The notes beneath the pieces were generated by a model that did no database searches, was not told the origin of the DNA, and was given only the letters and a program-made list of their open reading frames with translations. A stretch of DNA of 32,820 bases from Spirochaetaceae bacterium. Lineage in GTDB: Bacteria; Spirochaetota; Spirochaetia; SZUA-6; Fen-1364. Position numbers and translations under genes: made by a program. The stretch covers positions 1-32,820 of the forward strand of contig PMZS01000282.1 in NCBI GenBank assembly GCA_003170115.1, in the 5' to 3' direction. Of the stretch, positions 3,058 to 19,621 are shown piece after piece; positions within the stretch are counted from its first letter, which is position 1, and each line of letters begins with the position of its first letter.

Positions 3058-5670
3058 ATGAAACTGCTGCAGAAGAAGCACGAGCTTTTCATGGTTCCCC
3101 TGAAGGATCTCGTCGTGTTCCCCCGGATGATCGTCCCCTTTTTCGTCGGGCGTCGGCGCTCGGTGAGAAGCGTGGAGGAGGCCGGCCGGCTCGGACGACC
3201 TCTTTTCCTGGCGGCCCAGAAGAAGACCGCCGTGGAGGAACCGGGCGAGCGCGACGTAAACGCGGTCGGCACCATCGCGCGCGTGCTGCAAATGACAAAG
3301 ATGCCGGACGGCAAGCTCCGGCTGCTCGTGGAAGGGCTGGAGCGCGCCGCCGTGGTGAAGTACACCGAGACGCGCGACTGCCTCCAGGCGGTGGTGCGGA
3401 CGCTCCGCCCGGCACCCGAGGTGACGCCCCAGCTCGCCGCGCTCATGCGGACGGTCCTCACTCAGTTCAGCCAGTACAACGAGGTGGCAAAGAAGGTGCC
3501 CGCCGAGGCAGTAACTGCCATCGAGTCCGCGGAAGGTCCGGACCTCCTCGTCGATCTGGTGGCGGGAAACCTCCCCCTGAAGCTCGAGCAGAAGATGGAG
3601 CTTCTCTCCCTGGAGGACGTGAAGGAGCGCCTGGAGCGCTGCGCCGCGATCGTGGGCTCCGAGATCGAGCTGGCCAGCCTCGAGCAGGAGATCACGGGGA
3701 AGGTCCGACGCAAACTGGAGAAGACGCAGAAGGACTACTTTCTCAATGAGCAATTGAAGGAGATCCAGAAGGAGCTGGGCGCCGAAGGGGACGATCCCAC
3801 GGGGGCCAAGGAGCTCGAGGAGAAAGTGAAGGCGAAGGGCCTGCCGACGGAGGTCGTGGAGAAGTGCCAGAAGGAGCTGAAGAGGCTGGGACGGATGCAG
3901 CCTCTTTCGCCGGAGTCGGCGCTGCTGCGCACCTACCTGGAATGGGTGGTGGATCTGCCCTGGAAGGAAGCCACCGCCGACAACCGCGACATCGAGCGCG
4001 CGCGGCAGATACTGGACGAGGACCACTATGACCTGAAAAAGGTGAAGGAGAGGATCCTGGACTTCATCGCCGTGCGGCAGTTGAAGAGCCGGGTAAAAGG
4101 TCCCATCCTCTGCTTCATCGGGCCTCCCGGAACGGGCAAGACGTCCCTGGGCAGGTCAGTCGCGCGCTCGCTGGGCCGCAGCTTCGTGCGCGTCTCCCTC
4201 GGCGGCGTGCGCGACGAGGCGGAGATCCGCGGGCACCGCAAGACCTACGTGGGCGCCCTCCCGGGAAAGATCATCCAGTCCATGCGGAAGGCGGGCTCCC
4301 GCAATCCCGTTTTCCTTCTCGACGAGATCGACAAGATGAGCTCCGACTGGCGCGGAGATCCCGCCTCCGCCCTCCTGGAGGTCCTTGACCCCGAGCAGAA
4401 CCACACCTTCATGGATCACTACCTCGAGGTTCCATACGACCTGTCCAATGTCATGTTCATCACCACCGCGAACTCCACCCACAACATTCCCTATCCTCTG
4501 CGCGACAGGATGGAGGTGATCGAGATCTCGGGATACACCGAGTTCGAGAAGGAAAAAATCGCGGAGAAGTTCCTCGTGCCCAAGCAGATCCAGGAAAACG
4601 GACTGGAGTGGGCCGACATCGTGTTCCAGCGTTCCGCGATCATGCGGCTCATCCGCGCGTACACCCTGGAAGCCGGGGTGCGCAACCTGGAACGGGAGAT
4701 AGCCAACATTCTGCGCAAGATCGCGCGCGAGGCGGTGAAGAGCGGCGCGACCACACCCGCGCCCATTTCGGTGCCCGCTGATCCGACCGCGGACGCGGTC
4801 CCTGATGACGCGGCTGCCACGCCAGCTGCCACGGCCGGTAGCGCCGCACCGGCAGCCCTCCCGCCTGGCCCGTCGATTGGCGACGATAAAGAGCCGCCTC
4901 TTCCCACGGCGGATTTCAAGGTGGTGGTGAGCGGCAGGTCCGTGGAGAAATACCTGGGCAAGGAGAAGTTCCAGGAGAGCGCTTTCTCCCAGGACGTGAC
5001 GCCGGGACTCGCCTACGGCCTTGCCTGGACGGAGCTGGGGGGACAGCTTCTGGCCGTCGAGGTGGCGATCGTGGCGGGCAAGGGCGAGCTCACCCTCACG
5101 GGAAGCCTCGGGGACGTGATGAAGGAGAGCGCGCAGGCGGCGCTCACATTCCTCCGCGCGCACCACGCGGCCCTCGGGATCACGCCGGACTTCACGAAGG
5201 ACCGCGACATCCACATTCATGTTCCCGAAGGCGCGATACCCAAGGACGGGCCGTCCGCCGGCATCACGCTTGCCGCCGCGCTTCTTTCGGCCGTGGCAGG
5301 CGCAGCCGTCGCACCAGGCTTCGCCATGACCGGAGAAATCACGCTCACCGGCCGCATCCTGCCGATCGGCGGGGTGAAGGAAAAAATGCTTGCCGCCCAC
5401 CGGTACAAGATGACGAATGTCCTCCTGCCGAGGCGGAACGAGAAGGACCTTGAAGAGATCCCCCCGGAAGTGATGCACCAGCTCCATTTCCACTTCGCGG
5501 ACTCCGTGCTGGATGCGCTGGCGATTCTTTTTCCGCACAGGAGCTTTGATGCGCAGGAGACACCGCACCCGGAGGGTGTCGTGGACGCGCTCCGTCGGGA
5601 CGTTCCCCTCGTCTCTGACGCCCCTGGGGTCCCCGCAGTCGAACCGGCCCTGGACCAGCCCTTGCTGTAA
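3058..5670 (+). CDS. lon: Endopeptidase La (Lon protease)
   Basis: 870 aa; LON N-domain (MVPLKDLVVFPRMIVPFFVGR), Walker A GPPGTGKTS, protease motif PKDGPSAGITLAAALLSA; Ala/Pro-rich linker between AAA+ and protease domains. Confidence 0.96.
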   Translation: MKLLQKKHELFMVPLKDLVVFPRMIVPFFVGRRRSVRSVEEAGRLGRPLFLAAQKKTAVEEPGERDVNAVGTIARVLQMTKMPDGKLRLLVEGLERAAVVKYTETRDCLQAVVRTLRPAPEVTPQLAALMRTVLTQFSQYNEVAKKVPAEAVTAIESAEGPDLLVDLVAGNLPLKLEQKMELLSLEDVKERLERCAAIVGSEIELASLEQEITGKVRRKLEKTQKDYFLNEQLKEIQKELGAEGDDPTGAKELEEKVKAKGLPTEVVEKCQKELKRLGRMQPLSPESALLRTYLEWVVDLPWKEATADNRDIERARQILDEDHYDLKKVKERILDFIAVRQLKSRVKGPILCFIGPPGTGKTSLGRSVARSLGRSFVRVSLGGVRDEAEIRGHRKTYVGALPGKIIQSMRKAGSRNPVFLLDEIDKMSSDWRGDPASALLEVLDPEQNHTFMDHYLEVPYDLSNVMFITTANSTHNIPYPLRDRMEVIEISGYTEFEKEKIAEKFLVPKQIQENGLEWADIVFQRSAIMRLIRAYTLEAGVRNLEREIANILRKIAREAVKSGATTPAPISVPADPTADAVPDDAAATPAATAGSAAPAALPPGPSIGDDKEPPLPTADFKVVVSGRSVEKYLGKEKFQESAFSQDVTPGLAYGLAWTELGGQLLAVEVAIVAGKGELTLTGSLGDVMKESAQAALTFLRAHHAALGITPDFTKDRDIHIHVPEGAIPKDGPSAGITLAAALLSAVAGAAVAPGFAMTGEITLTGRILPIGGVKEKMLAAHRYKMTNVLLPRRNEKDLEEIPPEVMHQLHFHFADSVLDALAILFPHRSFDAQETPHPEGVVDALRRDVPLVSDAPGVPAVEPALDQPLL

Positions 5671-5682
5671 GGAGGGGCCTTC

Positions 5683-6873
5683 ATGAAGTTCGCCCGAAGG
5701 ATGTCGTCGGTCCATCGCTCGTTCATCCGTGAAATCCTGAAGGCCGCCGTCGATCCCGGGATCATTTCCTTTGCCGGAGGTCTTCCCAACCCGCGATTCT
5801 TTCCCGTGCGCGAGCTGGAGGAGGCGACGAGGAAGGTGCTGTCCTCCGACGGGGCTGCCGCTCTGCAGTACGCGACCACCGAAGGGTTTCCCCCGCTGAG
5901 GGAAATGATCGCCGCGCGTTATGCGGCGCGGGGAACCCGGGTGCGTCCTGAAGAGGTGCTGATCCTCAACGGCTCGCAGCAGGGGCTGGACCTCGTTGCC
6001 AAGGTATTCGTGGACCCGGGGGACGTGGTGCTGGTGGAAAGCCCCTCCTACCTCGCCGCCCTGCAGTGCTTCGGTTTCTTTGAGCCCCGGTTTCTGCCGC
6101 TGTTCATGGACAGTGACGGGGTCTGCGTGCGGGAGCTCACCGCCGCCCTGCGGGACGCGGAGCCGAAGCTCTTCTATGCCATTCCGAACTTCCAGAATCC
6201 CTCCGGCATCAGCTATTCACGGGAGCGGCGCCGCGAGGCGGCGAGGCTCCTCGCGGGCTCCTCCACGGTGCTGGTGGAAGACGACCCGTACGGGGAGATC
6301 CGCTTCATGGGAGAGGACCTGCCCTCGATCCGCGCCTGCATTTCGGAGGCCGGATCGACCGATTCATCGGTTCTCCTGGGAACGTTTTCCAAGATCGTCT
6401 CTCCCGGCGTGCGCCTGGGCTGGATCGTCGCCGGCACGGAGATCATGGAAAGGCTCGTGGTGGCCAAACAGGCTGCCGACCTTCATTCCAACGAGCTCAC
6501 CCAGCGCATCGTGCACCGCTACCTCAGCGACAACGATGTGAACGCTCATATCCAGCGGATCCGCGATGCCTACAAGCGTCAGCGCGACCTGATGGTAAGC
6601 GCGGTGAAGTCGCTCTTCCCCCCGGACGTGAGCTGCACGGAACCCGAGGGCGGGATGTTCCTGTGGATGACGCTTCCCCAGGCGGTGTCCGCCATGACCT
6701 TCTTCGAGAGGTCCCTCGAACGGAAGGTCACTTTCGTGCCCGGGGCCGCGTTCTTCACCTCGGGCGGCGGGGAGAACACCCTTCGGCTGAATTTCTCCAA
6801 TTGCGACGAGGCGATGATCGATGAAGGGATGACGAGGCTCGCACGGGTCTACTCCCAGATGCCGGGAGCTTGA
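5683..6873 (+). CDS. PLP-dependent aminotransferase, class I/II (2-aminoadipate aminotransferase/LysN-like)
   Basis: 396 aa; ISFAGGLPNPRFFP, YATTEGFPPLREMIAARY, VEDDPYGEIRF, GTFSKIVSPGVRLGWIV (PLP lysine). Confidence 0.88.
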   Translation: MKFARRMSSVHRSFIREILKAAVDPGIISFAGGLPNPRFFPVRELEEATRKVLSSDGAAALQYATTEGFPPLREMIAARYAARGTRVRPEEVLILNGSQQGLDLVAKVFVDPGDVVLVESPSYLAALQCFGFFEPRFLPLFMDSDGVCVRELTAALRDAEPKLFYAIPNFQNPSGISYSRERRREAARLLAGSSTVLVEDDPYGEIRFMGEDLPSIRACISEAGSTDSSVLLGTFSKIVSPGVRLGWIVAGTEIMERLVVAKQAADLHSNELTQRIVHRYLSDNDVNAHIQRIRDAYKRQRDLMVSAVKSLFPPDVSCTEPEGGMFLWMTLPQAVSAMTFFERSLERKVTFVPGAAFFTSGGGENTLRLNFSNCDEAMIDEGMTRLARVYSQMPGA

Positions 6874-6922: not shown

Positions 6923-8683
6923 CTGAGACTCAGAAGCATACGCTCGAAGCTGCTTTTCTCCTTCGTCTCGGTGATCCTGCTCCCGCTCCTTACGCTTGGA
7001 ATTCTCGGGCCCTACATCTCGGCGCGAACGATAGAGAGCGAAGCCACAAGCCACACCGTGCAGCTCATCCGCCAGGTGACGCGGAACATCGAGTTCTACG
7101 TGCGCCAGACGGAAAGCATCATCTCCATTGTGGATGCCAACCCCGACGTGCAGGCGTTCATGTCGTTCCAGGGGTCTTCGCAGCCCTTCTCCCCGCGGGC
7201 CCAGGCAGCGGCCCGGCAGCTCCTGAAGTCGATCTCCGACGCGCATCCCGAGATCGCGGGAATCCTCGTGGTGAGCGCGGACAATCGCCCCCTGAGCAAC
7301 GAGATCCAGCCGATCACGCGTGATCCGCTCACCGACGAGAGCTGGTACAGGAAGGCGGTGGACAACCAGGGCACCGTGCAGCTCCTCCCCCGACCCATCG
7401 GCAGGAACCTGCGGAGCAGCCACGAGTACAGCGCCGACGAGGTGGTCTCCATTGTAAAGGCGGTCGTGGACCCCGGCTCGGGGCAGGTCCGGGGCGTCGT
7501 GCTCATCGACATGCGCCTGAAGGTCGTGGAGGCCATCTTCGACGACATGACCATCGGTCTGGGCGGATTCCTCTTCATCGAGGCGCCGGGCGGAGCCATC
7601 GTGTACACGCCCGTGAACCCCATCGTCTACCGCGTGCGCGACGAGTGGCTGGACACCCCGCGCACGAGCAGCGTTCGGCGCATCAAGGGGGAGGACTACC
7701 AGATCGTCTCCCAGGGCTCCGATTACACTCAATGGAAGACAATCGGAGTTTTCCCCCTGAACGAGATCATGAGCCAGGTGAGCACCATCCGCTATTACTC
7801 CCTGATCATTGCCGGAGTCACCGTGCTCGTGGCGCTCATTGTCGCGGTCTTCTTCACGAGCGGTATCGCGCGGCCGGTGATCGAGCTTCGGTCTCTCATG
7901 AAGGAAGCGGAGGAGGGCAACCTCGGGGTCAGGTTCGAGGGTCGGCAGGAGGACGAGATCGGCTATCTCGGCAAGAGCTTTAATACCATGATCGAGGAGG
8001 TCCAGAAGCTCATCGACATGGTCTACCGCGAGCAGCAGAGCAAGCGGGAGGCTGAGCTGAAGACCCTCCAGGAGCAGATCAAGCCCCATTTCCTCTACAA
8101 CACGCTGGACACCATCCAGTGGATGGCGCAGGAGCACGGCGCCCAGGACATCGTGAAAGTCGTCGGCGCGCTCACCAGCCTCTTCCGCATCGGTCTCTCG
8201 CGCGGCAAGGAGATGATCCGCGTGGCCGACGAGATGGAGCACGTCCGCAGCTATCTCATCATCCAGAAAGCGCGCTACGAGGACAAGTTCGACTTCACGC
8301 TCAGCACGGACGACGAGGTCCTCTCCTGCATGGTGTTGAAGCTCACCCTCCAGCCGCTCGTGGAGAACGCGATCTACCATGGCATCAAGGAGCGTCGGGG
8401 CCATGGCTTCGTCCGGGTGGAGGCGCTCCGCCGCGACGGGATGCTCGTCCTTCGCGTGAGCGATGACGGGGTGGGGATGACGCCGGCGAAGCTCGAGGAG
8501 GTGCGTGCCCTCCTCAGCGTCGTCCATCCGCACGGCGCCGGGCTCGAAGGCTACGGGGTTCACAATGTCCACGAGCGGATCCAGCTCTCCTTCGGCACGC
8601 GTTACGGCCTGCGCTTCGAGAGCGCACCGGACCGCGGCACCACCGTGGAGATCCTCCACCCGCTGTTGACCAGCGAGGAGTAG
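6923..8683 (+). CDS. YesM-like sensor histidine kinase (TM - extracellular - TM - HAMP - His_kinase - HATPase)
   Basis: ORF track starts at GTG 6971. I extend to CTG 6923 because GGAGG lies at 6911-6915 (7-nt spacer) and the extension restores a basic N-terminus and complete first TM (LRLRSIRSKLLFSFVSVILLPLLTL). Kinase motifs LQEQIKPHFLYNTLDTIQWM, LVENAIYHGI, VSDDGVGM. Confidence 0.88.
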   Translation: MRLRSIRSKLLFSFVSVILLPLLTLGILGPYISARTIESEATSHTVQLIRQVTRNIEFYVRQTESIISIVDANPDVQAFMSFQGSSQPFSPRAQAAARQLLKSISDAHPEIAGILVVSADNRPLSNEIQPITRDPLTDESWYRKAVDNQGTVQLLPRPIGRNLRSSHEYSADEVVSIVKAVVDPGSGQVRGVVLIDMRLKVVEAIFDDMTIGLGGFLFIEAPGGAIVYTPVNPIVYRVRDEWLDTPRTSSVRRIKGEDYQIVSQGSDYTQWKTIGVFPLNEIMSQVSTIRYYSLIIAGVTVLVALIVAVFFTSGIARPVIELRSLMKEAEEGNLGVRFEGRQEDEIGYLGKSFNTMIEEVQKLIDMVYREQQSKREAELKTLQEQIKPHFLYNTLDTIQWMAQEHGAQDIVKVVGALTSLFRIGLSRGKEMIRVADEMEHVRSYLIIQKARYEDKFDFTLSTDDEVLSCMVLKLTLQPLVENAIYHGIKERRGHGFVRVEALRRDGMLVLRVSDDGVGMTPAKLEEVRALLSVVHPHGAGLEGYGVHNVHERIQLSFGTRYGLRFESAPDRGTTVEILHPLLTSEE

Positions 8684-8687
8684 GGCG

Positions 8688-9893
8688 ATGTGGAAGGTCA
8701 TGATCGCTGACGATGAGCCGAAGATCCGCCGCGGGCTGCGCACCACGATCGAGCGCATCCGGCCCGACATGAAGGTGGTGGCGGAGGCCGAGGACGGCGA
8801 GATGGCCCTCGCCCTCGTCCAGAAGGAAACGCCGGACATCCTCCTGATCGACGTCCGCATGCCCTTCCTGAACGGCCTCGAGCTCATAGAGAAGATCAAC
8901 GGGATCCTGAGCGACTGCATCATCATCGTCGTGTCGGGTCATGACGAGTTCGAATACGCGCAGCGTGCCCTGCAGCTGAAGGTGTTCGAATACGTCCTGA
9001 AGCCGGTGCCGCAGGAAGTGCTCGCCAACGTCCTCGCCCGGGCCGAGGAAGCCCTCACCGAATCGCGCCGTCAGCGGCATTACGTTTCGTGGGCGCACGA
9101 GCAGCTGGAACGCAACATGCCCCTGCTCCGCGAGCAGTTCCTTCGCGACTGGGTGCGCGGACGGCTCTCTCCATTGGAGCTCGCCGAGCAGGCGGGGTTC
9201 CTGGGCATGGAAACCTCCGGACATCTCGCGATGGCCGTGATCCACGTGGCCGAGCGCGCGGTGGCCACGGCGCCGTCCGAGGAGCGGGATCGCCGTCTCG
9301 CCCTCTACGCGGTTCGCTCCGCAGTGGATGAGGCATTCGGCGAGTTCACGCCGAGGTGGGTCTTTCTCGACGACCATGACAATATCGTCGTGCTTGCCCG
9401 CTCCTCCGGAGGCCAGGCCTGGGTGGAGGCGGCATCCCGAACGGAGGCGCGCGTGGTCCCCTCGCTCTGCCAGGCGTTGATCGTCGCTCAGGCTGCGGTG
9501 GAGGATGCTCCGCACGGCGTGCCCGAGGCGTACGACGCGCTGAGCGCCGAGATCTCGGGGAAAGGAAGCCATCGAGGCCTCGTGGTCCTTGCCCAGCGCT
9601 ATATCGACGCCCACTACGGGGAGCCGACGCTGTCCCTGGAGGAAGTGGCTTCCTCCGCCCAGATCAGCCCGGGGTACCTCAGCCGGCTCCTGAAACTGGA
9701 GACGGGCTTCTCCTTCGTGGACTACCTGACCCGGGTGAGGATCAACAAGGCGGTGCAGATCATGAATGATCCGTCGGTCAAGGTGTACGAGGTGGCGGAG
9801 GCCGTCGGGTACCAGAGCCAGCATTATTTCAGCCGCGCGTTCAAGCGGGTGTTCGGCCGGCCGCCGGTCGAATACCGCAAGGGCGGCGCATGA
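8688..9893 (+). CDS. YesN-like response regulator with AraC-type DNA-binding domain
   Basis: 401 aa; receiver domain KVMIADDEPKIRRGLRTTIE...ILLIDVRMPFLNGLELI; C-terminal AraC HTH ISPGYLSRLLKLETGFSFVDYLTRVRINKAVQIM...GYQSQHYFSRAFKRVFGRPPVEYRK. Confidence 0.93.
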   Translation: MWKVMIADDEPKIRRGLRTTIERIRPDMKVVAEAEDGEMALALVQKETPDILLIDVRMPFLNGLELIEKINGILSDCIIIVVSGHDEFEYAQRALQLKVFEYVLKPVPQEVLANVLARAEEALTESRRQRHYVSWAHEQLERNMPLLREQFLRDWVRGRLSPLELAEQAGFLGMETSGHLAMAVIHVAERAVATAPSEERDRRLALYAVRSAVDEAFGEFTPRWVFLDDHDNIVVLARSSGGQAWVEAASRTEARVVPSLCQALIVAQAAVEDAPHGVPEAYDALSAEISGKGSHRGLVVLAQRYIDAHYGEPTLSLEEVASSAQISPGYLSRLLKLETGFSFVDYLTRVRINKAVQIMNDPSVKVYEVAEAVGYQSQHYFSRAFKRVFGRPPVEYRKGGA

Positions 9894-11746
9894 GAGCTCG
9901 TCTGCCTCGCCTCCTCGTGCTCCCACTCCTCGTTCTGCTCGCGACCTGTCGGCCTTCGGGACACGACGCGACTGCGTTCGACTACGTGATCGGCGTCTCC
10001 ATGGCCAACCTTACCGAGCCCTGGCGCATCAACATGAGGGACGAGATCAATGCGGAGGCTGCGCACCACGCCAACCTCCGCATCGTGTTCACCGACGCGG
10101 CGGACTCGAACAGCCGCCAGATCCAGGACGTGCACACGCTGCTGAGCTCCGGCATCGACCTGCTCATCATCTCCCCGAACGACTCGGAGGCTCTCTCGCC
10201 GGTGATCACGGAGGCCTACCACCGGATCCCCGTCGTCCTCCTGGACCGGTCCGTGATCGGGTTCGACTACACCCTGTTCATCGGCCCCGACAACCGGCTC
10301 ATCGGCAAGCAGGCCGGCGAGTACGTCACGGGGCTCCTGGGAGAGAAGGGCGGGAAGGTCGTCGAGATCATGGGCCGGTCCGGCTCCCCCCCGGTGCTTG
10401 ACAGGAGCGTGGGCTTCCGGGACGCCATTTCGCCCAGCCGGTCCATCACCATCGTGGGCACGATTGTCGCCGATTGGCTGCGCGACAAGGCGGAAGACGA
10501 GCTGAGCGCGTGGCTCAAGAGATACGGGCGCGTCGACGTCATCTTTGCCCAGAACGACGCCATGGCCGAAGGGGCGCGCCGGGCGGCCGAGAAACTGGGG
10601 ATCAACGGCATCCGCGTGGTCGGCATCGACGGGCTGCCTGGACCGGATGGCGGCATTGAGCTGGTGCGAAGCGGAGCCCTCTCCGCGACGTTTACATGCC
10701 CGACGGGCGGCAAAGAGGCGATCATCTATGCAATGGACATCCTCCACCACGAGGAGGGTATCCCGAAGAAAATGATACTTCGGACCTCCCTGGTCACGGA
10801 GAAGACCATCGAGAGCGGCGCCTTGGGCGCCCCCGCGCGGCCGCGCCTTTCCCCCGATCATCGCATCGTGCTGGGTTTCGCCCAGACCGGCGCGGAGAGC
10901 AACTGGCGCCTGGCGAACACGGATTCCATCAAGACCGCGGCGCGGCAGGCCGGGATCGACCTGGTCTTCGTCGACTCGGAAGGGCAGCCGGAGAAGCAGA
11001 TCGCCGCGGTGAGGTCATTCATTGCGCGCAAGGTGGACATCATCTCCTTTTCTCCGATCGTCGAGTCGGGGTGGGAGCCGGTGCTCCGCGAGGCGAAAGC
11101 CGCGGGAATACCCGTGTTCCTGTCCGATCGCACCGTCGACGTGAAGGACGAGTCCCTCTGGACGACCTTCATGGGCTCGGACTTCCTGGAGGAAGGGCGC
11201 CGCGCCGCGAGGTGGCTCATCAACTACATGAAGACCGACGCACCGGTGAACATCGTGGAGCTGCTGGGTACGATTGGCTCGGCGCCGGAGATCGACCGGA
11301 CGCTGGGGTTCAAGGAGATGCTGAAAGAGCATCCCAACTACCGCATCATCGTGTCGGAAAGCGGCAATTTTGAACGAAGTACCGGCAGGGAGGTCATGCA
11401 GCAGATCCTGCAGGAACTTGTGGCAAAGGGTCAGAAAATGGATGCGCTCTTCGCGCACAACGACGACATGGCAATCGGCGCGATCGCGGCCATGGAGGCC
11501 TGGGGAATCAGGCCCGGCAAGGACGTGGCGATCGTGTCGGTCGACGGAATCCGCGATGCGTTCACCGCGATGATTGCCGGAAAGCTCAACTGCTCCGTAG
11601 AGTGCAACCCGCTGCTGGGTCCCCAGCTCATGAAGGCCGTCAAGGACTACATGGCCGGGAAGGACCTGCCCGTGCGCCTCATCACCTCGGAGGGCGTATA
11701 CCCCGCCGCGGTGGCGCGCACCGTGCTGCCGAGCCGCAAGTACTGA
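9890..11746 (+). CDS. Lipoprotein with two tandem LacI/RbsB-type periplasmic sugar-binding domains
   Basis: 618 aa; signal peptide with possible relaxed lipobox (LVLLATC). Domain 1 starts YVIGVSMANLTEPWRINMRDEIN...; domain 2 starts about aa 324 (RIVLGFAQTGAESNWRLANTDSIK...). Start overlaps the RR stop (ATGA). Confidence 0.88.
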   Translation: MRARLPRLLVLPLLVLLATCRPSGHDATAFDYVIGVSMANLTEPWRINMRDEINAEAAHHANLRIVFTDAADSNSRQIQDVHTLLSSGIDLLIISPNDSEALSPVITEAYHRIPVVLLDRSVIGFDYTLFIGPDNRLIGKQAGEYVTGLLGEKGGKVVEIMGRSGSPPVLDRSVGFRDAISPSRSITIVGTIVADWLRDKAEDELSAWLKRYGRVDVIFAQNDAMAEGARRAAEKLGINGIRVVGIDGLPGPDGGIELVRSGALSATFTCPTGGKEAIIYAMDILHHEEGIPKKMILRTSLVTEKTIESGALGAPARPRLSPDHRIVLGFAQTGAESNWRLANTDSIKTAARQAGIDLVFVDSEGQPEKQIAAVRSFIARKVDIISFSPIVESGWEPVLREAKAAGIPVFLSDRTVDVKDESLWTTFMGSDFLEEGRRAARWLINYMKTDAPVNIVELLGTIGSAPEIDRTLGFKEMLKEHPNYRIIVSESGNFERSTGREVMQQILQELVAKGQKMDALFAHNDDMAIGAIAAMEAWGIRPGKDVAIVSVDGIRDAFTAMIAGKLNCSVECNPLLGPQLMKAVKDYMAGKDLPVRLITSEGVYPAAVARTVLPSRKY

Positions 11747-11770: not shown

Positions 11771-11890
11771 ATCCCTGTCTACGCTCGAAAAGTGCACAAA
11801 ATAGCTGAATAGTCTAAATACCGCGACCCGAGAGTGTGCTACAACCAGAGGTGGATTCACACTCGTGGAAGTGAACAGAGGAGCACAATC

Positions 11891-12526
11891 ATGCGGCAGA
11901 TCCTTCGCGGGGCGGCGGTACTCCTTCTTCTGATCGCGGTGGCGGGAGTCGGCGCTGCGCAAGCGAAAGCGGGTACCCTGAAGTGCGTGGGGATATACTC
12001 GGAAACCAGCGACGGCTCCATCAGCTACAGGGTCGGCACCGGTGACTGGGTCGTTGTCAAGGTGGGGGACACGATTCCCGCCAACGCCGAGATACGGGTC
12101 AACGTGGACAGGGACTGGATAGAGGTCACGCCGGCCAGCAATTCGAACGCCGTGTACGAAATTCACGGACCCGACTCGGGGGAGATCATCAAGAAAGTCA
12201 CCGACATTCTGAAGGGCAAGCCGAAACTGGTCAGTTTCCCGAAACCAAAGGGGGCGACGCCCGACGCGAAATACAAGGACAAGCTGGTCGTTGTGCAGTA
12301 CCTCGGGAGACAAGTGTACATGACCCCCGATGGGGACGAAAATGACATCCAGTACGGCGATGTGCTGGACATCAAGGGGAAAGTAAGGATCATCGCCATC
12401 AACAACACCATCAATCTCATGAACGCCAGCGGAAAAGTGACCACCGTCATCGGTCCGCTGAATTTCGATGTGGAGAAGGTGCTGACGAATCAGCAGCTTT
12501 ACAAGTACTTGAACGTCCCGAGATGA
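11891..12526 (+). CDS. Secreted FecR-like domain protein of unknown function
   Basis: Start refined to ATG 11891 preceded by GAGGAG. Signal peptide MRQILRGAAVLLLLIAVAGVGAAQA; then YRVGTGDWVVVKVGDTIPANAEIRVNVDRDWIEVTP, resembling a FecR beta domain. Confidence 0.65.
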   Translation: MRQILRGAAVLLLLIAVAGVGAAQAKAGTLKCVGIYSETSDGSISYRVGTGDWVVVKVGDTIPANAEIRVNVDRDWIEVTPASNSNAVYEIHGPDSGEIIKKVTDILKGKPKLVSFPKPKGATPDAKYKDKLVVVQYLGRQVYMTPDGDENDIQYGDVLDIKGKVRIIAINNTINLMNASGKVTTVIGPLNFDVEKVLTNQQLYKYLNVPR

Positions 12527-12688: not shown

Positions 12689-13663
12689 ATGAAGCGCTGG
12701 GGAAAAGTCCTGGCTCTCGTCGCCGTGGCGATGGTGGTGGTCTCGGTGGCCGCAATCGCCGCTCCCAAGACTTGGGTCGTGGGTTTCACGCAGGTCGGGT
12801 CCGAAAGCGAATGGAGAACCGCTGATACCATTTCCGTTCAGGATTCGATCACGAATGATCCCACCCTCGTGATGGTGTATTCCGATGCACAGCAGAAACA
12901 GGAGAACCAGATCAAGGCGATCCGCTCATTCATCCAGCGGAAAGTCAACGTCATTCTTTTCACCGCAATTGTTGAAACCGGGTACGGTACCGTTCTCCAG
13001 GAAGCCCAAAAGGCCCACATTCCAATCGTCATGATTGACAGGCCCGTTGCGAAGGAGGACATGCATTACGTGCTCACCATCATGGGGTCTGATTTCATCA
13101 AGGAAGGCGAAAAGGCAGGAAATTGGCTCGCCAAGTACCTCAAGGACAATGGCATCGATGACGGAAGCACGCCGATCGACATTGCCGAGCTCCAGGGGAC
13201 CACTGGCGCGGCTCCCGCCATTGACAGAGCTCAGGGTTTCCGGAACATCGCGAAAGATCATCCCAACTGGCAGATCAATCACTCTCAGGACGGCGACTTC
13301 ACCTCCTCCCAGGGGAAGCAGGTCATGGAAGCCTTCCTGAAAGCCGACCCGAAAATCCAGGTGCTCTTCGCGCACAATGATCAGATGGCACTCGGCGCCA
13401 TCCAGGCAATCAAGGAAGCCGGCCTCCAGCCCGGCAAGGACATCATCATCATCGGCATGGATGCAGTGAAGGGCATGTTCCAGGCGATAGTCGCCGGTGA
13501 GGCGAACTGCACCATCGAGTGCAACCCACTGCTCGGGCCCCAGGCCGTGCAGGCAATCCATGATCTCAGGGCCGGGAAGAAGCTTCCCGCCCGCATCTGG
13601 ACGATCGAGAGCCAGTTCGACGCGACAAACGCTGCGGCGGCATTACCGACCCGCCAGTACTAA
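12689..13663 (+). CDS. Sugar ABC transporter substrate-binding protein (YtfQ/galactofuranose-binding-like)
   Basis: 324 aa; signal peptide; TWVVGFTQVGSESEWRTADTISVQ, RKVNVILFTAIVETGYGTVLQEAQKAHIPIVMIDR, VLFAHNDQMALGAIQAIKEAG. Confidence 0.9.
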   Translation: MKRWGKVLALVAVAMVVVSVAAIAAPKTWVVGFTQVGSESEWRTADTISVQDSITNDPTLVMVYSDAQQKQENQIKAIRSFIQRKVNVILFTAIVETGYGTVLQEAQKAHIPIVMIDRPVAKEDMHYVLTIMGSDFIKEGEKAGNWLAKYLKDNGIDDGSTPIDIAELQGTTGAAPAIDRAQGFRNIAKDHPNWQINHSQDGDFTSSQGKQVMEAFLKADPKIQVLFAHNDQMALGAIQAIKEAGLQPGKDIIIIGMDAVKGMFQAIVAGEANCTIECNPLLGPQAVQAIHDLRAGKKLPARIWTIESQFDATNAAAALPTRQY

Positions 13664-13691
13664 TCTCGAGAAGTTCTGAACTTTGAATGAT

Positions 13692-13723
13692 GCAGGACCA
13701 CTCGCACTCAGGGGTGGTCCTGC
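13692..13723 (+). terminator. Intergenic stem-loop between binding protein and ATPase genes
   Basis: gcaggaccac-tcgcactcaggg-gtggtcctgc: perfect 10-bp stem, 12-nt loop, 28 nt after the stop codon. Confidence 0.5.
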
Positions 13724-13780
13724 CTTCAATCAGGCCTTACGTCACCTCCGCCGCGGTGCTCAGCGGCTTCCGGGCGGGAG

Positions 13781-13808
13781 TTGACGAACCGCAGGGCTTG
13801 CTTATCAT
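13781..13808 (+). promoter_or_regulatory. Candidate internal promoter for the ATPase-permease genes
   Basis: TTGACG (13781-13786) - 16 nt - TATCAT (13803-13808), 44 nt upstream of ATG 13853. Confidence 0.45.
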
Positions 13809-13852
13809 GTGTCGCAAGAAGCCGCGGGGTACCGCAGCGAGGAGGCGTGGGA

Positions 13853-15379
13853 ATGCCCGAAGAAATGCCCGTCCTGTCGATGAAAAGGATCACCAAGGTA
13901 TTTCCGGGCGTGAAAGCCCTTTCCGCGGTGGATTTTCGCCTTTTCAAAGGAGAGGTTCACGCCATCATGGGCCAGAACGGCGCCGGAAAATCGACGCTGA
14001 TCAAAGTGCTCACCGGTGTGCACGAGCAGGATTCCGGCGAGATACTGCTGGAAGGCAAACCGATCCGCCCGGATTCCCCCCTCGCCGCACAGAAGCTGGG
14101 AATCAGCACCGTGTACCAGGAAATCAACCTCTGCCCGAACCTGTCGGTCGCGGAAAACATCTTTGCCGGCCGGCAGCCCACGCGTTTCGGAGGCATCGAC
14201 TGGAAAGAGATGACCCGGAGGTCGGAAGAGCTCCTGAAGCGGCTGAACCTCGTCATCGACGTCACCCAGATCCTCTCGTCGTACTCCATCGCAATTCAAC
14301 AGCTTGTGGCAATCGCCCGGGTCCTGGATATTTCCTCCAAGATCCTGATCCTCGATGAGCCGACTTCCAGTCTCGATGAGACCGAAGTGGAACAATTGTT
14401 CAAGGTCATCAGGTTTTTGCGTGATGAGGGACTGGCCATCATCTTCATCACTCATTTCCTGGACCAGACCTACCAGATTTCGGACCGGATCACGGTCCTG
14501 AAAAACGGGGAGTTCGTCGGGGAGTTCAGGACCGAAATGCTCCCGAAACTGGATCTGATCGCCAAGATGCTCGGCAAGGAATTGTCCGAGTTCAGCTATG
14601 CCGCGGATAACGATCAAAGAAAAAGGGCGTTCGCAATTGCCGGCAAAGATGCAAAAAACGTGCTCAATGTGAAGGACCTCGGACTGCGCGGTTCCATCGC
14701 GCCCTTTGACCTGAATCTGAACGAAGGCGAGGTCCTCGGATTGGCCGGACTCCTGGGTTCCGGCAGGACGGAAATGGCGCGGCTCATTTTCGGCATCGAC
14801 GGCGCCAACCAGGGTGAAATCCAGGTCAAGGGAAAGAAGGCGGCCATCAACTCCCCCAGGAGCGCAATGATGGCCGGGATGGGATTCTGCTCGGAGGACA
14901 GGAAGAGCGAGGGTGTTTTCGCAGACCTGACCGTCCGGGAAAACATTATCCTGGCCCTGCAGGCCAGGAACGGAGTGTTCAAATACATCACGACGAGAAA
15001 GCAGCTGGAGATCGCCGATGAAATGATCAAGTCTCTGGCAATCATGACCCCGAGCGCAAACAACCGGGCCAGCCAGCTCAGCGGAGGCAACCAGCAGAAG
15101 GTGATGCTGGCGCGATGGCTTGCCACCAGTCCGATCATCCTGATCCTGGATGAGCCCACGCGCGGCATCGATGTCGGAGCAAAGCTGGAGATCATGGAGC
15201 TGATCCTGAACCTGAGCAGGCAGGGGATGGGCGTCATGTTCATTTCCTCCGAGTTTGAAGAGGTGGTCCGATGCAGCAGCCGGATCGCCGTCCTGAAAGA
15301 CAAGGCAAAGATCGCGGAATTGAACGGAGAGGACATGAACGAGAGCAGCATCATGCGGACGATCGCGGGAGGGAACTAG
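13853..15379 (+). CDS. Sugar ABC transporter ATP-binding protein (two ABC domains; YtfR/RbsA/MglA-type)
   Basis: Start refined to ATG 13853 (GGAGG at 13841, 7-nt spacer). Walker A GQNGAGKSTL; second-domain signature LSGGNQQKVMLARWL; ILDEPTRGIDVGAK. Confidence 0.95.
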   Translation: MPEEMPVLSMKRITKVFPGVKALSAVDFRLFKGEVHAIMGQNGAGKSTLIKVLTGVHEQDSGEILLEGKPIRPDSPLAAQKLGISTVYQEINLCPNLSVAENIFAGRQPTRFGGIDWKEMTRRSEELLKRLNLVIDVTQILSSYSIAIQQLVAIARVLDISSKILILDEPTSSLDETEVEQLFKVIRFLRDEGLAIIFITHFLDQTYQISDRITVLKNGEFVGEFRTEMLPKLDLIAKMLGKELSEFSYAADNDQRKRAFAIAGKDAKNVLNVKDLGLRGSIAPFDLNLNEGEVLGLAGLLGSGRTEMARLIFGIDGANQGEIQVKGKKAAINSPRSAMMAGMGFCSEDRKSEGVFADLTVRENIILALQARNGVFKYITTRKQLEIADEMIKSLAIMTPSANNRASQLSGGNQQKVMLARWLATSPIILILDEPTRGIDVGAKLEIMELILNLSRQGMGVMFISSEFEEVVRCSSRIAVLKDKAKIAELNGEDMNESSIMRTIAGGN

Positions 15380-15380
15380 C

Positions 15381-16403
15381 GTGACATCCTGGAGATCCCT
15401 GAGTCGCACCAAGATCGTGTGGCCCCTCATTGCCCTGGGGGCTCTCCTGCTCTTGAACCTGTTCTTCACGCCTCACTTTTTCCGCCTGGAGATCAAGCAA
15501 GGGCACCTGTACGGCAACCTGATCGATATTCTGAAGAATGTCGCCCCGATCATGCTGCTGTCCATCGGCATGACGCTGGTCATCGCGACGCACGGAATCG
15601 ATATTTCCGTCGGTTCCGTCGTGGCGGTATCTGCCGGTGCCGTCGCGATTCTCATAGGGGGTGACCTCGCCGGGCACCCGAAGTACCCCATCGCCGTGGC
15701 GATGATCGCGGCGTTGCTGGTGTGCACCGCCGCGGGCATGTGGAACGGGATGCTGGTATCACGGGTCCGCATGCAGCCCATCATCGCGACACTGATCCTT
15801 TTCGTCGCGGGCCGCGGCATCGCGATGGTGTTCACGAATGCAATGGTCATCTGGCTCTACGCAAAACCGTTTGCGATCCTGGGCCAGGGATATGTGCTGG
15901 GCATCCCCTTCTCGATCTACATAGTGGCATTCGTGCTCCTCTTGACTTTCATTTTCACCAGAAGGACCGCGGTCGGGATGTTCATCGAGGCGGTGGGTAT
16001 CAACCCGACGGCGGCCCGGTTCTCCGGAATCAACGCAAAGAATATCCTCTTCTGGGTCTACACGTTCAGCGGGCTTTGCGCGGGTATTTCCGGGCTGATC
16101 GTGTGTTCCACCGTCATGAGCGCGGACGGGAACAACGCGGGGAACCTGTACGAGCTGGACGCCATCCTGGCCGTCGTGCTGGGCGGCACCTCTCTGAACG
16201 GCGGCAAGTTTTACCTGTTCGGGAGCATCGTCGGCGCCTTGATCATCCAGACCCTCACCACGAGCATCTACGCGATCGGCATTCCGGCCGACGTTTCCCC
16301 GGTCGTAAAGGCGTTTGTCGTGTGGGCCGTCTGCCTGATGCAGTCCGAGAGGTTCAGGACCAGGATCGTACGGGTGTTCGTCAGAAAGGGGTTGTCGGCA
16401 TGA
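15381..16403 (+). CDS. Sugar ABC transporter permease (YtfT/RbsC-like)
   Basis: 340 aa multi-TM; MLLSIGMTLVIATHGIDISVGSVVAVSAGAVA...GGTSLNGGKFYLFGSIVGALIIQTL. GTG start 1 nt after the ATPase stop. Confidence 0.92.
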   Translation: MTSWRSLSRTKIVWPLIALGALLLLNLFFTPHFFRLEIKQGHLYGNLIDILKNVAPIMLLSIGMTLVIATHGIDISVGSVVAVSAGAVAILIGGDLAGHPKYPIAVAMIAALLVCTAAGMWNGMLVSRVRMQPIIATLILFVAGRGIAMVFTNAMVIWLYAKPFAILGQGYVLGIPFSIYIVAFVLLLTFIFTRRTAVGMFIEAVGINPTAARFSGINAKNILFWVYTFSGLCAGISGLIVCSTVMSADGNNAGNLYELDAILAVVLGGTSLNGGKFYLFGSIVGALIIQTLTTSIYAIGIPADVSPVVKAFVVWAVCLMQSERFRTRIVRVFVRKGLSA

Positions 16404-17422
16404 GCAGGAAACTCTTCGCCAGCTCCCGAAACCTTCCCATCCTGGTCACCCTCGGATTGTTCATCGTCATGTTCGGATTGGGCTCCATCGCATTCCCCGG
16501 GTTCTTTTCGATTCAAAACTTTCTCAACCTTTTCATCGACAACTCGTATCTCCTGATCCTTGCCGTGGGGATGACGTTTGTGATCATATCGGGAGGCATC
16601 GACCTGTCCGTTGGATCCATGCTCGCCCTGTCCGGGATGGTCTCTGCGAGCCTGCTGGAAAAGGCTCACATGAGCCCCCTGTTCGTGATACCGATCGTGC
16701 TCCTCATGGGAACGGCGCTGGGTCTTTTCATGGGGTACCTGATCCAGGCCTTCGACCTTCCGCCATTCATCATTACCCTTGCCGGGCTGTACCTGGCGCG
16801 AGGCCTGTGTTACGTCGTCAGCCTCTTTACCATCTCGGTCAAAAACAATTTTTTCCAGGCCGCGGCGCATGCGCAAGTCAATATCATCGGCACCAATTTT
16901 CTTTCACCGGGAGCGTTGATCGCGATCGGAGTGGTCCTGATTGGGTTTTTTGTCTCGCGCTATACGAAGTTCGGCAGGACCGTCTACGCGATCGGGGGCA
17001 GCGAGCAGTCCGCCCTGCTGATGGGACTTCCGGTCGCACGCACCAAGATCGCCACCTATGCCTTGAGCGGCTTCTGCTCTGCGTTGGGCGGGATTGTGTT
17101 CACATTCTATACGCTCTCCGGGTACGGGTTGAACGGAAAAGGCATGGAGCTGGACACGATCGCGGCGGTCGTCATTGGCGGAACCCTGCTGACCGGGGGC
17201 GTGGGGAACCTCTTCGGGACGCTCCTCGGCGTGCTGGTCTATGGGATCATCCAGGTGCTGATCGTCTTCCAGGGCACACTCAACTCCTGGTGGACCAGGA
17301 TCGTGATCGGGTTCCTGGTGTTCGTCTTCTGCGTTCTGCAGAGGCTGTTCGAGGCGAGAAAGGGCGCAACGTTGGGACGGAACACTGCCCGCGAGCCCGC
17401 GAAAGCCGCGGCGGGACGTTAG
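16400..17422 (+). CDS. Sugar ABC transporter permease (YjfF/RbsC-like)
   Basis: MSRKLFASSRNLPILVTLGLF...LLILAVGMTFVIISGGIDLSVGSMLALSGMV...GGTLLTGGVGNLFGTLLGVLVYGII. ATGA overlap with the preceding permease; the ORF-track start at 15722 is a spurious upstream extension. Confidence 0.93.
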   Translation: MSRKLFASSRNLPILVTLGLFIVMFGLGSIAFPGFFSIQNFLNLFIDNSYLLILAVGMTFVIISGGIDLSVGSMLALSGMVSASLLEKAHMSPLFVIPIVLLMGTALGLFMGYLIQAFDLPPFIITLAGLYLARGLCYVVSLFTISVKNNFFQAAAHAQVNIIGTNFLSPGALIAIGVVLIGFFVSRYTKFGRTVYAIGGSEQSALLMGLPVARTKIATYALSGFCSALGGIVFTFYTLSGYGLNGKGMELDTIAAVVIGGTLLTGGVGNLFGTLLGVLVYGIIQVLIVFQGTLNSWWTRIVIGFLVFVFCVLQRLFEARKGATLGRNTAREPAKAAAGR

Positions 17423-18334: not shown

Positions 18335-19621
18335 CTACAGGTCGAGCATCACCGCGCCCGCCGTACGGATGGAGAGGGCATGGCAGGAGGCCGGGCCGAA
18401 CACCACCCGCATGCCGGAGAGGTACTCCGCCAGCATCGTCGCGGGAACGAACGCGAGGATCGTCCCGGCGAAACCGCCGCCGTGCACCCTCCACGCCCCG
18501 TTCTCCCCGAGGAGGATTTCACTCAGGGCAAGGGCGATGGGAACGCCCTGCTGGTCGACGGACTTTGTCGAGTAGCAGTTCTGGAGGAGGGTCCATGAGC
18601 TGCGGCCGCTCTCATTGACGAGCCCGAGGAAATCCGCAAACCTGCCCTCTTCCAGCGCCTGGACCTGCCGGTCCACGCGTATGTCGTCGGCGTAGAAATG
18701 CAGGGCCCGGAGGATCGCGCGATCGCTTACCTTTCCGCGCAGAAGGGGCAGCGCGGCCAGGACGCGCTGCCGGGAGACGTCCCGCAGGACGCTTCCTCCG
18801 AAGTATCCCGACACGTCTTTCATTTCCTGCTTCACCGCGGCGTACTCGTCGGTGAGATCGGCATGGCTGCCTCCCGTATCGACAATGACCGGCACGTACC
18901 CGCTTCCACTGAAGTCCGAGCGTACGGCCCTCACCCGGGGATGGGAAAAATCCTGAAAGTCGATGGTCACGAACCCGCCCAGCGCGCAGGTGGTCTGGTC
19001 CATGAGCCCGCATGGCTTGCCGAAGTATTCGTTTTCCGAAAACTGGGCGATGAGCGCAATCTCGACGCCGCCGATCCCGCCTCCGTTGGCGAAGTGGTTG
19101 AGGATCGTCGCAACGAGCACCTCGTACGAAGCCGACGAGCTGAGGCCCGAGCCTTTCAGGACGTCACTGGTCACGCATGCGCAGAATCCTCCGACCGAGT
19201 GACCGGTGTCCCGCGTCCTGGCCGCCACGCCCCTCGTGAGAGCCGCCGCGGTGCCGAGCTCCGAAACCTTGCGCGCCAGGTCGTCGATGCGGATCTGATG
19301 GCGCGGGTATCCTTCGCTTTCGATTGTGATGCGGCCATCCGAGGTCGGCGCGGCGACGGCGATTGCATCCAGATCCACCGCCGCGGCGAGCACCCGGCCG
19401 CCATTGTGATCGGTGTGGTTGCCGCAGATCTCCGTACGGCCGGGCGTGCTGAAAAGGCGGGTACCCTCCACGTGTGGGAAGGAATCCTCGAATCGTTCAA
19501 GAAGCCCTCGATACCGGGCTTTCTGTCGATCAGCCGCTCCCGGCCTTGCCCCGTACAATGATTCGAGCACTTCCGCTGCTTTCCCGCCTTCAAGCGAATT
19601 CCCCAGCGTTCCGGCATTCAT
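18335..19621 (-). CDS. Galactokinase-family sugar kinase (GHMP)
   Basis: ATG at 19621 (MNAGTLGNSLEGGK...). GHMP motifs FSTPGRTEICGNHTDHNGG, GSGLSSSASYEVLVATIL, CGLMDQTTCALGG, VHGGGFAGTILAFVP. Confidence 0.88.
   Translation of the reverse strand: MNAGTLGNSLEGGKAAEVLESLYGARPGAADRQKARYRGLLERFEDSFPHVEGTRLFSTPGRTEICGNHTDHNGGRVLAAAVDLDAIAVAAPTSDGRITIESEGYPRHQIRIDDLARKVSELGTAAALTRGVAARTRDTGHSVGGFCACVTSDVLKGSGLSSSASYEVLVATILNHFANGGGIGGVEIALIAQFSENEYFGKPCGLMDQTTCALGGFVTIDFQDFSHPRVRAVRSDFSGSGYVPVIVDTGGSHADLTDEYAAVKQEMKDVSGYFGGSVLRDVSRQRVLAALPLLRGKVSDRAILRALHFYADDIRVDRQVQALEEGRFADFLGLVNESGRSSWTLLQNCYSTKSVDQQGVPIALALSEILLGENGAWRVHGGGFAGTILAFVPATMLAEYLSGMRVVFGPASCHALSIRTAGAVMLDL

Follow-up and report, generated by a model that had tools for sequence, protein, structure and literature searches.

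In a 32,820-nucleotide contig (PMZS01000282.1, here called the window) of the Spirochaetaceae bacterium assembly GCA_003170115.1, a draft genome of 4.08 Mb in 405 contigs with relatives in the Spirochaetota, a sensor histidine kinase (HK), an AraC-type response regulator (RR) and a lipoprotein built of two fused sugar-binding domains stand ahead of a sugar importer. We propose that they form a three-component system in which the first binding domain (D1) docks the kinase, the second (D2) senses a furanose and the RR activates the importer, and we put the probability of this reading at about 0.62. The gene and domain anatomy, its conservation, the phylogeny, and the conservation of pocket and operator were observed directly; from them we infer the identity of the ligand, the contact of D1 with the kinase, activation as the direction of the signal and the binding of the RR to the operator. 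An earlier note on this DNA had picked out 6923-11746 as a candidate three-component sugar-sensing module, and the kinase, the AraC-type regulator and the two-domain lipoprotein are all present there. The locus contains the following features.

6923-8683 (+), sensor HK of the YesM/LytS type, 586 aa, TM-dCache-TM-HAMP-His_kinase-HATPase, CTG start (Pfam)
about 7025-7747 (+), dCache sensor domain of the HK (Pfam)
8688-9893 (+), RR, 401 aa: REC, GGDEF_2-like middle and AraC-type helix-turn-helix (Pfam)
9890-11746 (+), lipoprotein with tandem periplasmic binding protein (PBP) domains, 618 aa, lipobox Cys20 (Pfam, AlphaFold, 24-member alignment)
9989-10819 (+), D1, PBP domain of the RbsB/BT1754 type, proposed kinase-docking domain (2x7x match, tree, pocket tables)
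10862-11743 (+), D2, PBP domain of the GafA/YtfQ type, proposed furanose sensor (6hbd and 2vk2 matches, tree, fully conserved pocket)
11786-11825 (+), bipartite direct-repeat operator, proposed RR binding site (GAAAAGTGCACAAAA / GAATAGTCTAAATAC, 20-bp register)
11891-12526 (+), small exported beta protein of the window's clade only, first gene after the operator (alignment with 7 relatives)
12689-13663 (+), GafA/YtfQ-like substrate-binding protein (SBP) of the transporter (NCBIfam, pocket residues)
13853-15379 (+), GafB/YtfR-like double ATPase (Pfam, NCBIfam)
15381-16403 (+), GafC/YtfT-like permease (Pfam, NCBIfam)
16397-17422 (+), GafD/YjfF-like permease, start approximate (above the NCBIfam cut-off)

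Two binding domains in one lipoprotein

The locus has the hallmarks of a three-component system, namely a PF06580 kinase with an extracytoplasmic sensor, a YesN/AraC-type RR, and an anchored sensory SBP distinct from the SBP of the transporter. Pfam assigns to the HK the domains dCache_1 (E=4.8e-21, residues 35-275), HAMP, His_kinase (PF06580, 6.3e-26) and HATPase_c, and to the RR the domains Response_reg (1.4e-26) and HTH_18 (1.4e-21). The HK starts at a CTG codon (6923), the homologous residue in the close relative L031 is encoded by TTG, and GGAGG lies upstream of the start in both. The tight packing reported earlier was borne out, since the RR and lipoprotein genes share an ATGA overlap; a 4-bp overlap is also found in most relatives. 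Cys20 of the lipoprotein stands behind a hydrophobic signal. The earlier note placed the module directly before a sugar ABC transporter; the importer does follow, with the gene of the small exported protein and the operator in between.

Peripla_BP_4 matches the lipoprotein in two separate stretches (E=3.4e-85, Pfam), and the AlphaFold model built with 24 homologues (mean pLDDT 89.8, pTM 0.85) contains two complete PBP folds joined by a short linker of low confidence near residues 311-320. Because the Pfam stretches and the modelled folds agree, both binding domains are real, as the earlier note had held. Its likening of the first domain to the sensor-kinase-like PBP1 family also stands, as the nearest solved structure of D1 is 2x7x, the fructose-binding sensor domain fused in the hybrid kinase BT1754 (E=6.5e-59, TMt 0.89, 39% identity in Foldseek); the likeness of D1 to the XylFII structures 5xsj and 5xss is distant (E about 8e-9). 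D2 is best matched by 6hbd, MSMEG_1712 of Mycobacterium smegmatis with beta-D-galactofuranose (TMt 0.90, 50% identity), and also fits E. coli YtfQ (2vk2, TMt 0.93). Two further points go beyond the earlier note: the sensor of the kinase is a dCache domain, and it is D2, not D1, that is similar to the transporter's own binding protein (46% identity to the SBP at 12689-13663).

D2 carries the ligand-binding residues and the fold of the GafA type. Neither the tandem protein (388 bits, best stretch 325-616) nor the transporter SBP (306.5 bits) reaches the NCBIfam equivalog cut-off for YtfQ of 510 bits, and we therefore call D2 GafA-like rather than a strict YtfQ equivalog. YtfQ/GafA proteins bind both D-galactofuranose and L-arabinofuranose, and their binding-site residues are identical (PMC10191376). 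The ligand of D2 is probably a furanose, galactofuranose and/or L-arabinofuranose. The importer itself (12689-17422) is of the YtfQRT-YjfF-like (GafABCD) furanose type, with all four subunits matching and YjfF alone among them passing the NCBIfam equivalog cut-off.

Distribution, phylogeny and kinase lineage

We found tandem proteins in 16 of the 395 Spirochaetia genomes and in 21 of the 400 Paenibacillaceae genomes surveyed. In loci with readable flanks the tandem gene follows the HK and RR genes, and this synteny is kept in two phyla, far beyond chance. Of the outcomes that the earlier note named as refuting it, neither a single true binding domain nor a lack of synteny in relatives was seen. 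YtfQRT-YjfF-like genes adjoin every tandem locus with sufficiently readable flanks except L066 and L069. In these two (L066:4588-6327 and L069:1741-3489) the pocket of the C-terminal PBP is lost and another CUT2-type importer lies alongside, which may reflect decay or re-use of the fusion. The tandem gene at L063:2897-6073 (genome G378) is split over two frames, by an assembly error or by a true frameshift.

The relatives also offer loci in which the two domains occur apart. Single-D1 systems combine HK, RR and a D1 sensor beside RbsA-like importers with a D1-like SBP (L032-L035, L037, L038, L073, L141), and single-D2 systems place a D2 sensor lipoprotein beside YtfQRT-YjfF-like importers (L075-L079, L081, L082), where the kinase has a short, helical-looking sensor; the three of these kinases that were scanned gave no dCache match. 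In two Paenibacillaceae genomes (L139:12405-14462 and L140:12592-14664) the tandem has an unfused equivalent, with a dCache kinase, an RR, a PBP lipoprotein without the sugar-pocket residues and a separate, intact GafA-like D2 lipoprotein; L142-L144 are alike except that their genes are scattered. At L144:9131-12228 a dCache chemoreceptor (MCP) is flanked by the Gaf importer on one side and by the stand-alone GafA-like lipoprotein on the other, a hint that this sensor may also act in chemotaxis.

In a PBP-domain tree of 113 rows, the N halves (D1) group together (82/39, in 85% of bootstrap trees), nested among the stand-alone D1 sensors and close to BT1754, with support of 90/78 for the grouping with BT1754 and 100/97 for the D1 sensor group, and the D1-type transporter SBPs form a clade of their own apart from them. 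The 27 C halves (D2; this clade is without L066 and L069) form one clade (98/93), which is sister (95/90) to the stand-alone D2 sensors of the unfused type and not to the transporter SBPs. From these placements it follows that both parents of the fusion were sensors, and a single old fusion of two sensor PBPs would be the simplest history. An origin of D2 as a local duplicate of the transporter SBP is ruled out by the separation of the D2 clade from those SBPs. In the kinase tree, a 96/92 branch separates the kinases of tandem and single-D1 systems from those that accompany stand-alone D2 sensors; thus, the kinase goes with D1.

Binding pockets and operator

The pockets were compared at five core polar residues, at positions corresponding to the ligand contacts of RbsB; these positions we take from established knowledge of the ribose-binding protein, with a reference sequence that aligned as expected, and two incomplete rows were excluded. 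All five residues are kept in every tandem D2 (26/26), stand-alone D2 sensor (11/11) and D2-type SBP (23/23), in all D1-type SBPs (8/8) and in six of the seven stand-alone D1 sensors, but in just 10 of 29 non-redundant tandem D1 domains. General conservation of the two halves is about equal (mean pairwise identity 0.48 for D1 and 0.55 for D2). The losses in D1 comprise D89G in Paenibacillaceae; among the spirochaetes, one clade has R90K and another N190T together with the loss of W164, and further losses occur in single species.

Intergenic alignment of seven spirochaete loci, taken downstream of the tandem gene, revealed a 40-bp element of two direct half-sites in a 20-bp register, which in the window read GAAAAGTGCACAAAA and GAATAGTCTAAATAC. 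A first matrix was trained solely on the 7 sites of the window's clade. Among 13 tandem loci of Paenibacillaceae, its best match fell 20-71 bp ahead of gafA, gafB or HK in 11, and in a twelfth, L135, the match there is the second best. Among 11 tandem loci of other spirochaetes, the best match precedes one of these genes in 7. Many of these matches, not all, surpass the maxima of Markov shuffles. With a second-round matrix the operator was detected in 34 of 39 loci, or 31 of 36 without duplicates, on which this matrix was partly trained. Nothing comparable was found in nine stand-alone-D2 loci and five unfused loci, and a scan of the whole 4.08-Mb genome (at most 3 mismatches) returned one site and no second. 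For single-D1 systems we claim no operator, as the tandem-trained matrix gave weak sites in 4 of 8 and the window-clade matrix none.

The RR would be the natural binder of this element, since it is the sole regulator seen to travel with it. Direct-repeat sites would suit an AraC-type regulator, and the distance from operator to start codon, most often about 60-70 bp, would fit an activator placed beside the -35 region. Together, the synteny in Spirochaetota and Paenibacillaceae and the conserved operator before the transporter uphold the earlier assignment of the locus as a three-component sugar-sensing module.

The small protein encoded behind the operator (11891-12526) is conserved, at 58-72% identity, in six spirochaete relatives only, and its gene is always the first behind the operator. 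Pfam and NCBIfam scans gave no match for it; its model (pLDDT 79) has two beta-rich halves, FecR-like by inspection, and a weak Foldseek match to 5ix9. Elsewhere in the window are the following genes.

3058-5670 (+), Lon
5683-6873 (+), PLP aminotransferase
18338-19537 (-), galactokinase (GalKase_gal_bdg, GHMP), convergent to the importer

The earlier guess of galactose as the sugar is plausible and weakly supported. A GH36 alpha-galactosidase lies near three spirochaete tandem modules (L057:11515-12999, L067:14924-16001, L068:2-865), which is suggestive only, but galactokinase is not found beside the modules of relatives, and galactose as the ligand was therefore not adopted on the strength of the galactokinase neighbour. 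A search for catabolic neighbours conserved beside the relatives' loci, by which the sugar might be named, found none.

Proposed mechanism, alternatives and known systems

In the proposed mechanism, D1 is inherited jointly with the dCache kinase and would serve as its docking piece. A furanose would close D2, and the movement would be relayed via D1 to the dCache domain of the kinase, which would phosphorylate the AraC-type RR; the RR, acting on the operator at 11786-11825, would then activate the gene of the small exported protein and the gafABCD importer. The earlier suggestion that the lipoprotein presents ligand to the kinase is hereby refined, with the evidence favouring D1 for the contact with the kinase and D2 for the sensing of a furanose. 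Such a division of labour could have arisen by re-aiming of a sensor through fusion, in which a docking sensor gained a second, complete sensor PBP for the ligand and could then do without its own pocket, or retained it to read a second input; we consider the chances of this history evenly balanced.

Several observations weigh against this reading. D1 of the window itself keeps all five polar residues and the stacking Trp, and differs from the D1-type SBPs only in Y235 to C and A103 to P; it may therefore still bind sugar, and our confidence in a ligand-blind D1 is therefore moderate. The pocket losses in D1 amount to about four or five independent events. The tandems of L066 and L069 have lost the D2 pocket, and their transporter differs in kind. 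In L080 a distant dCache kinase accompanies a D2-like sensor of the stand-alone kind, which shows that dCache alone does not demand D1, and a mirror-tree analysis with dCache barely favours D1 over D2 (partial r 0.22 versus 0.18). Five tandem loci lack the operator.

The residues retained in the window D1 also suit a different arrangement, in which each of the two domains binds a ligand of its own (one perhaps a fructose- or ribose-like sugar, the other a furanose) and the kinase responds to the two together, by AND, OR or antagonism. The nearest structure to D1, 2x7x, binds fructose; a tandem PBP with two ligands exists in CdgH, where one domain binds Arg, Lys or Orn and the other prefers Gln or His (PMC5431781); and LevS of Streptococcus mutans is tuned jointly by two SBPs (PMC3043104). 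However, at least one core residue is lost in 19 of the 29 non-redundant tandem D1 domains and never in the D2 of the same proteins, and a second sugar pathway is not conserved beside the loci. We regard such an integrator of two sugars as somewhat unlikely, though it is the most serious of the alternatives.

More doubtful still is that the lipoprotein is a docking platform that reports the loaded transport SBP (12689-13663) or the permease, rather than free sugar, to the kinase. The resemblance of D2 to that SBP could let it compete for or sit on the permease, and the L066/L069 system persists beside another transporter though both of its pockets are altered. A pure adaptor, however, would not need the strict conservation of the D2 pocket, and comparable known systems use sensor SBPs that bind ligand, as CuaD does (KD 20 nM; PMC10384115). 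Very improbable, more so than any other reading, is that the tandem lipoprotein serves the importer as a further transport SBP and that the HK and RR sense something else through dCache. Against it stand the overlap of the RR and lipoprotein reading frames seen in most relatives, the membrane anchoring, the co-inheritance of the kinase with D1, and the fact that the transporter operon already has an SBP of its own. This reading would agree with the adjoining importer of matching type, and dCache domains often bind small molecules directly.

SBP-dependent three-component sugar sensing as such is already known from XylFII-LytS, AraPST and CuaDSR. The proposed system resembles XylFII-LytS-YesN of Clostridium beijerinckii, a D-xylose system, in its anchored type-I PBP, His_kinase HK and YesN/AraC RR, and in the CUT2 sugar importer with its own SBP alongside; it differs in that XylFII is a single PBP and that the kinase sensor here is dCache, not the four-helix bundle that the XylFII-LytS structure paper reportedly describes for LytS. 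CuaDSR of Ruminiclostridium cellulolyticum and the arabinose sensor AraPST of G. stearothermophilus likewise place a sensory SBP, an HK and a YesN/AraC RR before an importer, but with one SBP instead of two fused and with cellobiose or arabinose as the ligand. CuaR recognises a region upstream of the CuaDSR transporter genes (PMC5663094), and CuaD binds its kinase whether ligand is present or not (PMC10384115).

Two carbohydrate-binding proteins per kinase are found in LevQRST of Streptococcus mutans, where LevQ is apparently needed for the integrity of the complex and LevT tunes sensing (PMC3043104); these are separate proteins acting on phosphotransferase system (PTS) target genes, and the likeness noted here is one of arrangement. 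The hybrid two-component systems of the BT1754 type in Bacteroides have the fructose-binding sensor domain nearest to D1, but fused to the kinase, whereas here it is part of a lipoprotein with a second PBP. BvgS and CdgH also have a pair of PBP domains arranged one after the other in a single sensor, but of the amino-acid type (PBPb/VFT) and fused to a kinase or cyclase (PMC4352136, PMC5431781). On the transport side, GafABCD/YtfQRT-YjfF shares the four subunits and the GafA binding-site residues; E. coli YtfQRT-YjfF is regulated by GalR, GalS and AraC (PMC10191376), and we propose a three-component system in that role here.

A search for tandem sugar PBP sensors in the literature available to us found none. 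As far as the literature searched shows, a fused pair of type-I sugar PBPs as the third component, conserved in two phyla, is new, as are the unequal conservation of the pockets in its two halves and an operator that spans phyla. Few cases are known of a ligand-loaded binding protein switching a kinase, or of how the specificity of such pairs evolves. The single-D1 systems, the single-D2 systems with unrelated kinase sensors, the unfused two-PBP loci and the fusion, all beside importers, provide a natural comparison set; a readable operator is available for the fusion, and domain-swap predictions can be tested directly in culturable Paenibacillus, such as P. endophyticus CECT 8234, which has the tandem at locus L028. 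The module may also offer a modular template for sugar biosensors. If the proposal is true, fusion would give SBP-dependent kinases a general way to change their ligand, with the kinase interface and the operator left unchanged.

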